Shown piece by piece: positions 26,873 to 43,113 of a DNA stretch of 64,000 nt; positions within the stretch are counted from its first letter, which is position 1, and each line of letters opens with the position of its first letter. The translations under genes and the position numbers were made by a program. This stretch comes from a bacterium. Lineage in GTDB: Bacteria; Zixibacteria; MSB-5A5; GN15; FEB-12. The stretch is taken from the NCBI GenBank assembly GCA_020444475.1, contig JAHLKV010000001.1:124001-188000 (forward strand), in the 5' to 3' direction. The notes below the pieces were generated by a model that searched no databases, was not told the origin of the DNA, and saw only the letters and a list, made by a program, of their open reading frames with translations.

Positions 26873-26989
<117 letters not shown>

Positions 26990-27094
26990 ATATCTTCATA
27001 GTTTCTGCTGTGATGTGGTTTGACATCACCCAACAGGTGCGCAGGCCATTTTCTCTACGGCTTACTCTTAGAAGAGCAGTGATCGTAATTTTTA

Positions 27095-30101
<3,007 letters not shown>

Positions 30102-30192
30102 ATAACTCACCTAAGAGCATACCTATAGATGCAACGATCCTGCGCAACCTGTTGGAAGATGCGCAAACCGTTTATTACAGCAGAAACTATGT

Positions 30193-30206
30193 AGTTGTCA
30201 AAGAAC
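30193..30206 (-). promoter_or_regulatory. boxA-like antitermination element before 23S
   Basis: Minus strand TGTTCTTTGACAACT, repeated upstream of 16S. Confidence 0.6.
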
Positions 30207-30263
30207 AGTCGCTCGCCCTGCGGCGAACTATATCACAAGCGAACTTGCGTTCGATTTCTCTCA

Positions 30264-30336
30264 TGGAGATGACCGGGATCGAACCGGTGACCTGTGGCTT
30301 GCAAAGCCACCGCTCTCCCAACTGAGCTACATCCCC
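30264..30336 (-). tRNA. tRNA-Ala (anticodon TGC), no encoded CCA
   Basis: GGGGATGTAGCTCAGTTGGGAGAGCGGTGGCTTTGCAAGCCACAGGTCACCGGTTCGATCCCGGTCATCTCCA. Confidence 0.97.
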
Positions 30337-30350
30337 GAAACGTACCAAAA

Positions 30351-30427
30351 TGGTGGGCCTAAATGGAGTTGAACCATTGACCTCGCGCTTATCAGGCGCG
30401 CGCTCTAACCAACTGAGCTATAGGCCC
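30351..30427 (-). tRNA. tRNA-Ile (anticodon GAT), CCA encoded
   Basis: GGGCCTATAGCTCAGTTGGTTAGAGCGCGCGCCTGATAAGCGCGAGGTCAATGGTTCAACTCCATTTAGGCCCACCA. Confidence 0.97.
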
Positions 30428-30584
30428 GTCCATCAGGCCACCGCCTCACGGCGATAACGTAATTTATATCTAAACAGCCAGCTAAAGACAGGGCGACATT
30501 TGATCGCCCGAGATGCATGTCGAGAGGCTCGACCATCGATGTTGTGGCCGGTCCGTGAGACCGACCTAGCACACCGTGCTCCTT

Positions 30585-32138
<1,554 letters not shown>

Positions 32139-32945: not shown

Positions 32946-33281
32946 ATGCTGGCTGTATCCGACAAGGCATGTGAAGAGCTTCACAAGTTCTTCGATTCCG
33001 ACCAGGGCAAAGAAGCACATCTCATTATTTACTTTCAGGGCATGGCCTGCTCCGGACCATCGCTGGGACTGACTGTCGACAAAAAGATCGATGAGCTGGA
33101 GAAGATCGAAGCGAATGGTATCGAAGCGTATATCGACCCGAAACTTCGCGAGTTCCTCTCTCAGTTCAAAGGTATCAATATCGACTACGTGACGATGAAC
33201 GACCAGTCGGGCTTCACGATCAAGGTCGAAGGGGCTGGCGGCTGCGCCTCCTGCGGCGACAAAAGCGAGCACTGCGAGTAA
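32946..33281 (+). CDS. HesB/IscA-like protein, cysteine form
   Basis: MLAVSDKACEELHKFFDSDQGKEAHLIIYFQGMACSGPSLGLTVDKKID...CASCGDKSEHCE; start reset to the internal ATG that aligns with the neighbouring paralog. Confidence 0.85.
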   Translation: MLAVSDKACEELHKFFDSDQGKEAHLIIYFQGMACSGPSLGLTVDKKIDELEKIEANGIEAYIDPKLREFLSQFKGINIDYVTMNDQSGFTIKVEGAGGCASCGDKSEHCE

Positions 33282-33417: not shown

Positions 33418-33747
33418 ATGCTGAATGTTTCCGACAAAGCCAGCCAGGAGCTGAGAACTTTCCTGGCCTCTGACAAAGGACAGGGCAGCCACCTTGTCAT
33501 CTACTTCCAGGGCATGGGCTGAGGCGGCCCCAGTTTGGGGTTGGCTCTGGATGAGTCAGTGGATGGATTGGAAAAGCTCGAACATAATGGTATCGAGACC
33601 TATATCGAGCCCGGACTGAAAGAGTTTCTCACCCAGTTCGAGGCGATCTCTATCGACCACGTGACGATCGGCGGACGGTCCGGATTCGTGGTCAAGGCCG
33701 GCGCCGGCTGTGACAGCGGCAGCTGTTCCTCGGGCACCTGCGGGTGA
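33418..33747 (+). CDS. HesB-like selenoprotein; in-frame UGA (33520-33522) read as Sec at codon 35
   Basis: MLNVSDKASQELRTFLASDKGQGSHLVIYFQGMG[U]GGPSLGLALDESVDGLEKLEHNGIETYIEPGLKEFLTQFEAISIDHVTIGGRSGFVVKAGAGCDSGSCSSGTCG; aligns without gaps through the UGA with the upstream Cys paralog. Confidence 0.88.
33523..33546 (+). promoter_or_regulatory. candidate bacterial SECIS hairpin
   Basis: Immediately 3' of the UGA: CCCCA-GTT-TGGGG (33528-33540), extendable by G-U and C-G pairs to about 10 bp with one bulge; first loop base is G. Confidence 0.6.
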
Positions 33748-33770
33748 AACTCGCTACAGAATATCGAACG

Positions 33771-33799
33771 AAGGCCGGTCGCGTGATCGGCCTTTTTCT
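33771..33799 (+). terminator. terminator of the HesB-like gene pair
   Basis: AAGGCCGGTC-GCGT-GATCGGCCTT followed by TTTCTTTG. Confidence 0.9.
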
Positions 33800-33972: not shown

Positions 33973-34049
33973 GCCGGGGTAGCTCAGTTGGTTAGAGCAC
34001 CAGATTGTGGATCTGGGGGTCGAGCGTTCGAGCCGCTCCCCCGGTACCA
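33973..34049 (+). tRNA. tRNA-His (anticodon GTG), CCA encoded
   Basis: GCCGGGGTAGCTCAGTTGGTTAGAGCACCAGATTGTGGATCTGGGGGTCGAGCGTTCGAGCCGCTCCCCCGGTACCA. Confidence 0.95.
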
Positions 34050-35892: not shown

Positions 35893-36438
35893 TTAGCCTT
35901 CTTCGATAATGTGCGCCAGCTTCAGGAACTTCGAGCTGATCTTCAAACTGGCATCCTTCACCTTCGTCAGGTTGACCTCGAATTTCTCTTTTTTCTTGGC
36001 GTCGACATCGCGAATGAAGTTGACCATCACCCCGGCCTCACCGAACCCCTCGGCGTCACCGATCGTCAGGATCGACTCACTTGCGGCTTTGCCGAGTATG
36101 GTCGCCAGCGTGGCTTCATCATCGGTCGTGATAAACATCACGTGCGTGCCGGTATATTCGTCGTCCTCAGCCAGATGCTGGACTTTCGGTTTGGGCTCGA
36201 GGGCCGAGAAGTTGGCTATCTTGGCGAGTTCATCGTAGACCTTCGAATCACCAACCACCGAGATAACGATCGGCTCTCCGTCCGCAGGTCCCTGTCCTTC
36301 GGGCCAACTCACGTATTCCACTAATTTGATCAGGAGGGCTGCTTTGTATGCGGCCACTGCCTGCTCGTCTTGCTGGGCGTAGCCGGAACCGATCAGCAGT
36401 ACCGCAACCATCAAGATCGCTGCCACCGTTTTCATCAT
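35893..36438 (-). CDS. YfiR/DUF4154-family protein
   Basis: Signal peptide; YKAALLIKLVEYVSWPEG...ITIGDAEGFGEAGVMVNFI typical of YfiR/DUF4154. Confidence 0.88.
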   Translation of the reverse strand: MMKTVAAILMVAVLLIGSGYAQQDEQAVAAYKAALLIKLVEYVSWPEGQGPADGEPIVISVVGDSKVYDELAKIANFSALEPKPKVQHLAEDDEYTGTHVMFITTDDEATLATILGKAASESILTIGDAEGFGEAGVMVNFIRDVDAKKKEKFEVNLTKVKDASLKISSKFLKLAHIIEEG

Positions 36439-36769
36439 GACATCCCTTCCGCCGCCGCCGGGCGGCGACCATTAAACAGCCTGCCTTCTACCGTGAACGA
36501 ACTCCTCCCCCGATGCGGAGTCAGGACCGTTCTTGCCAAGTAATCGTCAGGGGATACGATCTGGTTAACGCCGCAGGAGCCAGGGGTTCCATCTCTGTCC
36601 ATTATTTGCGCATGAACGGGCCCAGAGAGGGCAATTGACTGACGATGTCCCGGACCGGCTTCTCAATCGGTTAAGCGTCTCGCTCCGGTGTTCGATAACT
36701 ACCCTAAGACACACATATATACATATACGAATTCAGTTTGCCGTGGGCGGGCATACGGAGGTTCTATCG

Positions 36770-38428
36770 ATGCGCTTGAGAGACTTCTCAATCGGATTTC
36801 GACTCGCGGTCGGGATTGTTGCCGCCATTACCGTTCTCCTGATCCTCACCTCGATGGTGTACTATATCTTTCAGAAGCAGAACGTCACGGACAACATGAA
36901 AGAAGAGTTCCGGCTGCTGGCAGATGTTCTTGCCGACAACAGCCGTTCAGCAGTAGAGTTCGATGACACCGAGAGTGCGACTGAGATCCTGCAGGCCCTG
37001 GCCAGAGACGAAAACGTGACGTGGGCGGCCATTACCCTCCCGGATAACTCCGTGTTTGCATCGTATCTCAGCCCGGCCGCTGCCTCCCTGCCGCCCTTAC
37101 CGCAGGAGGCGCTGACCGCACCGTACATGGATGATCGCTCCCTGACAGTCTCCAAGGGCCTGGAAAGCGGCGACAAGGAAATCGCCCGAATCTGGATTGA
37201 GACCAATCTTAACGACCTGCAGCATCGAAGTCAGGTGACCCTGATGCTCGCGATAGTGGTATCAGTGGTCGGATCGCTCATCGGGTTGTTCGTCGCCTGG
37301 CTGTCGCAGCGGACTATCACCCGACCGATCAAGATGCTCCGGGGAGCAGGAGCTTCGCTGTCACAGGGGGATATCTCGTTCGAGATCGCTTATCGGGGCA
37401 AGGACGAAGTCGGCGGACTTGCGGACGCCTTCCGGGACTTTCAGGACTATCTTCGCGAGTTGTCGCACGCCGCCCGACGGATCGCCGACAACGACCTGAC
37501 GGTTCGGGTCAAACCGCGCTCGGACAAGGACGTGCTGGGCTTGTCGTTTTCGATGATGGCGTTGAATCTCTCCGGAATGGTCCGCCAGCTCGGCGACAAC
37601 GCTTCGCAACTGGTCTCCGCGGCCAACCAGATTTCGTCCTCCTCCGAGGAAATGTCGCGAGGTGCCCAGATGCAGACCGAGCAGGTGACACAGGTAACTT
37701 CGGCCATCGAGGAGATGAGTCAGACCATCATGGAATCTTCGCAGAACGCCGGCGAAGCGACCAATGCTTCGGAGAACGCCTCGGAAGTGGCCCGCCAGGG
37801 CGGCGAGATTGTCAGTGAGACGATCCAGGAAATGCAGCAGGTCACGGCCGTGGTAAGTGCCTCCGCCGAGTCGATCCGCAAACTCGCCTCTTCCGTCAAC
37901 GAAATCGGTGAGATCGTCAACGTCATCGATGAAATCTCGGATCAGACCAACCTGCTCGCGCTCAATGCCGCGATCGAGGCTGCCCGTGCCGGTGAGCAGG
38001 GCCGGGGCTTCGCAGTGGTCGCCGATGAGGTCAGAAAGCTGGCCGAGCGGACCGGCAAGGCGACCGACGAAATCGCCGCCAAGATCAAGACCATCCAATC
38101 GGAGACTGCCGACGCGGTGTCCTCCATGGAAGCGGGCATCAACGAAGTCTCCAAGGGGCAGCAGCTCGTCGATCAGGCCGGCGACAGCCTCACCGAAATC
38201 GTCGATATCTCAAGGCGGGTGATGGAAATGGTGCGGCACATCGCGCACGCGTCGCAGGTCCAATCGAATTCCGCCGAACAGATATCTTCAAACATCCAGA
38301 CCGTGACTAACATCGCCCGCGAAACCAGCTCGGGAGCCAACCAATCGGCCGCGGCCGCCGAGGAGCTGCACCGTCAGGCTGAAGGACTGCAGCAGATGGT
38401 CGCCAGGTTCAAGGTTGTCGAGGAATAG
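36770..38428 (+). CDS. methyl-accepting chemotaxis protein
   Basis: TM-sensor-TM-HAMP; signalling hairpin [51 protein letters not shown]; start set to [10 protein letters not shown]. Confidence 0.95.
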
Positions 38429-41094: not shown

Positions 41095-43113
41095 ATGCAC
41101 GGTCTGAATGAATCTCGCCGTCCAACCTCCACGGCCGGACATCGGCGCGGGTGGCTGCTATGTTCGGCAGTTTTCATGCTCATTATGGTCCTCCTTCTTT
41201 CCGCATCGCCGCTGGTGGCCCAGGAAGAAGATCCCGGCATTTCCGACAATTGTCTGATGTGCCACGACGGGGCCGTTAGACAGGACGAGGGCCCCGTCAT
41301 GGAGGCTCATCGCGGCTCGGTGCACGAAGGTCTGGAGTGTGTAGACTGTCACGCATCGATCGAAGAGCTGCCGCACGACGAAGACCTTCCACCGGTCCAA
41401 TGCGGTGACTGCCACGATGATGCTTCCGATGAATACAAGCGCCACGGCCGGCTCTCGTTCCCCGGCGGCGAAGACATCCCTGACTGTGCCGCCTGCCACG
41501 GCGCCCACGATATCCTCTCGTCAACCGACAAGGCCTCCCGTGTCAACCCGGTGAATCTGCCTGCCACCTGCGGTGTCTGTCACGAAGACATCGATCTCAC
41601 CCAGAAGCACGAGATCCTGTTCGGTAAGGCCGTTGACCTTTACAAGAGCTCAGTCCATGGCACGGCCTCGCTGGGCGGTGTCTATCTCGCAGCGACCTGT
41701 AATGACTGCCACTCGACTGGTGGGACGGCCCACAAGATTTATTCACCGGACCACCCGGAATCATCGATCAATCACTTCAATATTCCCAGCACCTGCGGCA
41801 AGTGCCACCATAACGTCGAACTCGACTTCTGGGAGGGCATCCACGGCAAGCTTGTTAAACGAGGTGAGACCGACGCTCCGGTGTGCACCGACTGCCACGG
41901 TGAGCACGGCATCGTCTCACCGGACAATCCGGAGTCTCGCGTCAGCCCGACCCGAGTCGCCGAAGCGACCTGCGCCCCCTGCCACGAATCGGCCCGCCTG
42001 AACGAGAAGTACGGTACCCCGGTCGGCCGGATACAGTCGTGGGTGGATTCTTATCACGGTCTCAAGAGCCGCGCCGGTGACCTCACTGTCGCCAACTGCG
42101 CCTCCTGCCACGGGGCGCACCGGATTCTCCCCCACACCGACCCGACCTCGTCGATCTATCCGGGCAACCTTAAAGAAACCTGCGGCCAGTGCCATGCCGG
42201 TATGACGGCCGAGATGGCCGCTGCGACACAGATTCACGGACAGCCCGGGGTCTCGCAGACCGAAATGGCCAACATAGTCAAGAGTATCTACATCGTCATC
42301 ATCGTGATAGTCATCGGAGTCATGATCCTCCACTGGCTGATAGACCTGCTCAAGCAGATTCGGGCCGTCAACAAACTTCCGCAGATCCGGCGAATGACCG
42401 CCAACGAAGTCTGGCAGCACACCTTCCTTATGGTGACGTTTATCGTGCTGGTGATCTCCGGCTTCTCCCTTCGATTCTACGAAGCCTGGTGGTCGCAGTG
42501 GCTGTTCGGTTGGGAAGGCGGCGCCGAACTTCGAGGTGTCATACACCGAGTCGCCGCGGTCATCTTCATGCTGACGACACTCTGGCACGTCGTCTATCTG
42601 GCCGGAAAACGTGGACGGCAGTTCGTCGCGGACATGCTCCCCGGCAAGCACGACGTGACCCAGTTCATCGAGATGATCCTCTACAATATGGGACTCAGGA
42701 AGGAACATCCGCGCTTCCGGCGCTTCAGCTACGTTGAGAAAGCCGAGTACTGGGCGCTGGTGTGGGGAACGATCGTCATGGCGCTGACCGGCATCGCGCT
42801 CTGGTACGACAACCTCGTCGTGGCCTTCCTCCCCAAAGGTGCGTTGGACGTTATACTCGTGGTTCACTACTACGAAGCCTGGCTGGCCACACTTGCGATT
42901 CTCGTCTGGCATATGTACTCGACGGTTTTCAATCCGAAGGTCTATCCTATGAATCCGTCGTGGTACACGGGCCAAATGCCGATCGACATGCTCAAGAGCG
43001 AACATCCGGAAGATCCGGCTATACTCGAGCTCGAGGGCCGACTCCCCAGGCAGGATACGGTGAAACCGGCAGCCCCGAACCAAACCGACAAGCAGAGCAA
43101 CGATACGAAGTAG
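41095..43113 (+). CDS. multiheme cytochrome c (11 CxxCH) fused to cytochrome b561-like membrane domain
   Basis: 11 CxxCH motifs counted (CLMCH, CVDCH, CGDCH, CAACH, CGVCH, CNDCH, CGKCH, CTDCH, CAPCH, CASCH, CGQCH), then a multi-TM domain with conserved His. Confidence 0.95.
   Translation: MHGLNESRRPTSTAGHRRGWLLCSAVFMLIMVLLLSASPLVAQEEDPGISDNCLMCHDGAVRQDEGPVMEAHRGSVHEGLECVDCHASIEELPHDEDLPPVQCGDCHDDASDEYKRHGRLSFPGGEDIPDCAACHGAHDILSSTDKASRVNPVNLPATCGVCHEDIDLTQKHEILFGKAVDLYKSSVHGTASLGGVYLAATCNDCHSTGGTAHKIYSPDHPESSINHFNIPSTCGKCHHNVELDFWEGIHGKLVKRGETDAPVCTDCHGEHGIVSPDNPESRVSPTRVAEATCAPCHESARLNEKYGTPVGRIQSWVDSYHGLKSRAGDLTVANCASCHGAHRILPHTDPTSSIYPGNLKETCGQCHAGMTAEMAAATQIHGQPGVSQTEMANIVKSIYIVIIVIVIGVMILHWLIDLLKQIRAVNKLPQIRRMTANEVWQHTFLMVTFIVLVISGFSLRFYEAWWSQWLFGWEGGAELRGVIHRVAAVIFMLTTLWHVVYLAGKRGRQFVADMLPGKHDVTQFIEMILYNMGLRKEHPRFRRFSYVEKAEYWALVWGTIVMALTGIALWYDNLVVAFLPKGALDVILVVHYYEAWLATLAILVWHMYSTVFNPKVYPMNPSWYTGQMPIDMLKSEHPEDPAILELEGRLPRQDTVKPAAPNQTDKQSNDTK

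Follow-up and report, generated by a model that had tools for sequence, protein, structure and literature searches.

The 64,000-nt window that we analysed (contig 1, positions 124001-188000, of a 3.4 Mb genome in 6 contigs, estimated to be 79% complete) carries, at 33418..33747 on the plus strand, a HesB/IscA-like gene whose product is almost certainly a real selenoprotein. We infer that selenocysteine (Sec) is inserted at its in-frame UGA, as a sequence-only reading of the window had proposed; the decoding machinery of the genome, conservation of the UGA, a SECIS element and selective constraint past the UGA all support this. The named organisms nearest to this genome belong to candidate division GN15 / Zixiibacteriota. 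As judged from sequence, the gene brings a whole bacterial class into a selenoprotein family that is already known, and is not a new kind of system.

The reading frame and its in-frame UGA

The frame opens at ATG 33418, meets TGA at codon 35 (33520-33522) and then stays open, as re-reading of the sequence bears out. Because the TGA at 33745-33747 is the stop codon, the selenoprotein is 109 aa long, and the end coordinate 33747 given by the sequence-only reading is correct and includes that stop. The same reading had aligned the gene without gaps to the adjacent 111-aa paralog (32946..33281, plus strand), which has Cys35 and no SECIS; this alignment holds over residues 1-85, with the UGA opposite Cys35. 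It had also described a remnant in the list of open reading frames, rightly giving it 70 aa (33535-33747) but placing its start at an internal ATG, where the start codon is in fact TTG.

A gene matching the HesB-like gene was found in 78 of 118 relatives; among the class members searched, about two thirds have the family. One of these matches (G104) is an ordinary ErpA-type Cys protein, and another (G013), at the end of a contig, was left out of detailed reading. The Sec-type set comprises 77 loci in 76 genomes, the window's own genome counted; one genome (G011) has two Sec copies on different contigs. At least 75 other genomes of the class (Zixibacteria/GN15) carry the gene with TGA at the same codon. 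The homologues, which the sequence-only reading had proposed to compare at codon 35, have TGA there in 77/77 Sec-type loci and TAA or TAG in none, and Cys in four copies with an xGP motif. Codons 35-38 of the window gene read UGGP, and the UxGP motif is retained in all 77 loci. Since two further, separately sequenced species of the window's genus also have TGA at this codon, as do all 77 loci, the UGA is not a product of chance or of sequencing error.

Comparison of the window gene with its two orthologs in the genus gives dN/dS of about 0.05-0.09 for the part 5' of the UGA and 0.07-0.11 for the part 3' of it, values that indicate strong purifying selection on both sides. The neutral Ka/Ks past the UGA that the sequence-only reading had named as evidence against Sec is thus not what we find. 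In the same comparisons dS is about 0.77-1.10 before the UGA and 0.89-0.97 after it, and 0.10-0.22 in the SECIS codons.

SECIS element and decoding machinery

Among 59 sequences with pairwise identity below 75%, synonymous codons occur at background frequency over the whole gene apart from the SECIS region, codons -1 to +13 (33517..33561, plus strand), where synonymous positions are frozen. Within this region CTG is used in 100% of sequences against a background of 29%, GCT in 98% against 19%, GAG in 98% against 29% and TCA in 84% against 16% (log10P -25 to -32, a calculation in which relatedness of the sequences is not modelled), and outside it no column in the 59 sequences falls below log10P -4. 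Through these nearly frozen synonymous sites, sequence comparison shows a bacterial SECIS with great clarity.

The predicted apical hairpin (33541..33559, plus strand) has the stem UUGGCUC/GAGUCAG and the loop UGGAU (33548-33552), 25 nt past the UGA. Its five core pairs (33543-33557, GGCUC-UGGAU-GAGUC) are standard in 73-75 of 75 distinct sequences, with frequent G-U/A-U/G-C exchange and isolated compensatory changes (C-G to U-A and U-A to C-G). The published bSECIS rule (PMC13188914) calls for an apical loop 16-37 nt past the UGA, a G in the first two loop positions and a stem of at least 4 bp; applied by hand, in answer to the bSECIS check suggested by the sequence-only reading, it recognises this element at 25 nt, with loop UGGAU and a stem of 5-7 bp. 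The minimum-energy fold of the window RNA alone favours another hairpin nearer the UGA, so our assignment of the hairpin rests on comparison among sequences.

The window genome possesses all four components of the Sec pathway for which the sequence-only reading had advised a search: tRNA-Sec (69 bits, above the Rfam cut-off, anticodon TCA (UCA)), SelB (313 bits), SelA (514 bits, directly adjoining SelB) and SelD. The SelD gene (G000:C3:60870-61796, L043) has its own in-frame TGA, in the context CAGUASK, and a candidate SECIS, identified by eye, 20 nt past its UGA (CGCCAAA/UUUGGCG, loop GUU); SelD is likely a second selenoprotein in this genome. The best match to formate dehydrogenase, considered as a further selenoprotein, is free of in-frame stops. 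Co-occurrence of the gene with SelB proved uninformative as a test because SelB is over the cut-off in 107/118 relatives, and the remainder have partial or weaker matches. We propose that SelB, with Sec-tRNA, reads the UGA at 33520-33522 as Sec, and that the hairpin with loop UGGAU, starting 25 nt past the UGA, would direct this insertion.

Three other accounts of the UGA have to be weighed against Sec insertion. That it is a real stop, leaving a pseudogene or a truncated 34-aa product with a downstream remnant, would fit with ORF finders showing only the 70-aa frame, yet purifying selection and frozen synonymous positions continue past the UGA and the codon is always TGA in 77 loci across many families; we regard this account as very improbable. 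We give equally little credence to decoding as another amino acid, by Trp or Gly suppression or an altered genetic code. An in-frame UGA with readthrough would suffice for such a model, but UGA is the stop codon of 18 of the window's 33 stop-bounded frames with 300 codons or more, and of the selenoprotein gene itself, the full set of tRNA-Sec, SelA, SelB and SelD is present, paralogs have Cys at the site, and the SECIS is conserved. Least probable by far is a sequencing or assembly error at 33520 concealing a true TGC or TGG: the window does come from a single assembly of a genome that is 79% complete, but independent genomes from its own genus, its family, its order and its class also have TGA at this codon.

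The Cys paralog and the genomic surroundings

Cys copies with the xGP motif are rare: only the four were found, three in the window's genus and one in a genome of another family (G066), each in a genome that also has a Sec copy. In one genome (G001), about 5 kb of other genes lie between the Cys and Sec copies. Other relatives lack a Cys copy of this kind, so the pair in the window is most simply read as the result of a recent duplication in which Sec changed to Cys. The protein tree makes the genus' three Cys copies the sister group of its Sec copies (support 100), nested in a Sec-only radiation, and separates the G066 Cys/Sec pair from them (support 100). The AU test rejects (p = 0.020) a topology that groups all Cys copies and places them outside the Sec copies. 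With a distant ErpA outgroup, placing only the window genus' Cys copies outside gives AU p = 0.50 and placing only the G066 Cys copy outside gives AU p = 0.22; both placements escape rejection because that outgroup is distant, and we set aside the ErpA-rooted tree as sole judge of whether the Cys copy of the window's genus is derived.

From these data, the Sec gene is probably ancestral in the Zixibacteria/GN15 class, and the Cys neighbour is most likely a genus-specific tandem duplicate in which Sec changed to Cys and the SECIS was lost. The sequence-only reading had stated that Sec normally replaces a catalytic or metal-binding Cys; for this pair that order is probably reversed, since the tree nests the Cys copies in the Sec radiation, although the AU value of 0.50 leaves doubt. 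The tree further indicates that the family of G066 acquired another such tandem pair independently. There the Cys copy lies upstream of the Sec copy (L040 1000-2000, minus strand) and retains a near-intact fossil SECIS with two substitutions (CTG to CTC and GAG to GAT). Two Sec-to-Cys changes in the HesB-like family had already been noted (PMC1794560).

The gene pair in the window adjoins a minus-strand ribosomal RNA operon (26873-32138) with a complete 16S (30587-32138), two tRNAs, 23S and 5S, and the selenoprotein gene sits between this operon and a tRNA gene at 33973-34046 with anticodon GTG (read by eye), a tRNA-His. A plus-strand hairpin with a T tail (33770..33795), 22 nt past the selenoprotein stop, resembles an intrinsic terminator by consensus match only. 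With neighbours identified by eye at 78 loci, no recognisable Fe-S, redox-partner or selenium gene stood among the recurrent ones, and gene neighbourhood was dropped as a functional clue for this reason. Elsewhere in the window, a YfiR/HmsC-like protein (DUF4154, minus strand) is encoded next to a CHASE8-HAMP chemotaxis receptor (35893-38428), and four relatives (L038, L039, L040 and L058) have a similar-looking YfiR-like gene just 3' of their HesB-like gene. The window also encodes a 672-aa protein in which multihaem cytochrome c7/c3 repeats are fused to a cytochrome b561-type membrane domain (41095-43113).

Function and relation to known proteins

The AlphaFold model of the selenoprotein (pLDDT 81, with a disordered tail below 50) matches ErpA, IscA and SufA structures in Foldseek (2apn, 1r94, 1s98 and 2d2a; E 6e-6 to 8e-4, probability 1.00). 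Against the gathering cut-off of 26.3 for PF01521, the Sec protein scores 23.0 and the Cys paralog 27.4, and the window genome also has a separate IscA/ErpA-like gene without an in-frame stop (G000:C5:212671). By alignment, Sec35 takes the place of the first Cys conserved in the A-type carrier fold, facing the CSG cysteine of ErpA (2apn). We read the product as a small protein of A-type (IscA/ErpA/HesB) fold in which Sec stands where such proteins have their first metal-ligand or reactive Cys.

We propose that Sec and the Cys-rich C-terminal tail, which has at least three Cys in 65/77 Sec proteins, form a site that probably binds Fe, an Fe-S cluster or another soft, thiophilic ligand. A redox role for Sec, whether peroxidase-like or in thiol exchange, in place of metal or cluster binding is the less likely interpretation but deserves serious consideration: a redox function is presumed for most of the uncharacterised selenoproteins of prokaryotes (PMC13188914), and the C-terminal Cys tail could resolve a selenenyl-sulfide. 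The A-type fold and the alignment of Sec with the Fe/Fe-S ligand Cys of IscA/ErpA count against a redox role, as does the failure to recognise a redox partner gene among the recurrent neighbours. Tandem Cys/Sec copies have been fixed separately in two lineages, and we raise, as a speculative and rather doubtful idea, that such copies might act together, either by forming a mixed Sec/Cys oligomer that binds a single metal site or as two isoforms of the same carrier switched by selenium. Such tandem pairs are a natural setting in which to ask what an A-type carrier gains from Sec.

HesB-like proteins are a known bacterial selenoprotein family, as the sequence-only reading had stated and in agreement with the listing of HesB-like UxGP proteins (PMC13188914), and the Methanococcus maripaludis member was identified via mutagenesis and 75Se labelling (PMC11097638). 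The best curated models for the window protein are NF038090 IscA_HesB_Se (70.2 bits, cut-off 85, E 1.4e-19) and TIGR01911 HesB_rel_seleno (38.5 bits, cut-off 66.35, E 1.3e-09). Both scores are under cut-offs that are model thresholds rather than biological features, and the NF038090 cut-off is passed by 0/134 genomes searched in the phylum. A locus in Acetoanaerobium noterae (Clostridia), found by tblastn, has UGGP and passes TIGR01911 (77.6 against 66.35), and its SECIS core, GCTCTGGATGAGC, is identical to that of the window gene, which ties the Zixibacteria clade to the known family. Sequence comparison thus places the Zixibacteria gene in a clade of this family spread across the class, which we call divergent because of its scores under the curated NCBI cut-offs. 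Because the curated models fail to recognise so widespread a family, many annotations of Zixibacteria genomes probably lack a conserved selenoprotein.

Like other HesB-like selenoproteins, the window protein has a predicted A-type fold, a UxGP motif whose Sec replaces the first conserved Cys, and a Cys-rich C-terminus, and its gene shares the SECIS core of the Acetoanaerobium member. It differs in scoring under both curated cut-offs, and in this class the family nearly always has Sec, while two lineages keep a Cys copy next to the Sec copy. ErpA, IscA and SufA (PF01521) resemble the selenoprotein in predicted fold and in the alignment of U35 to the CSG cysteine, whereas they have CSG(F/M) where the selenoprotein has UxGP, with Sec replacing Cys, and end in CGCG where its tail is longer, variable and Cys-bearing. 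The closest parallel to the Cys copies that we describe is the HesB-like Cys protein of Desulfitobacterium hafniense, which has a SECIS-like structure (PMC1794560). Both cases involve a Sec-to-Cys change in the same family, and G066 likewise has a Cys copy with a near-intact SECIS, but in the Cys/Sec pairs described here the Sec copy persists beside the Cys copy.
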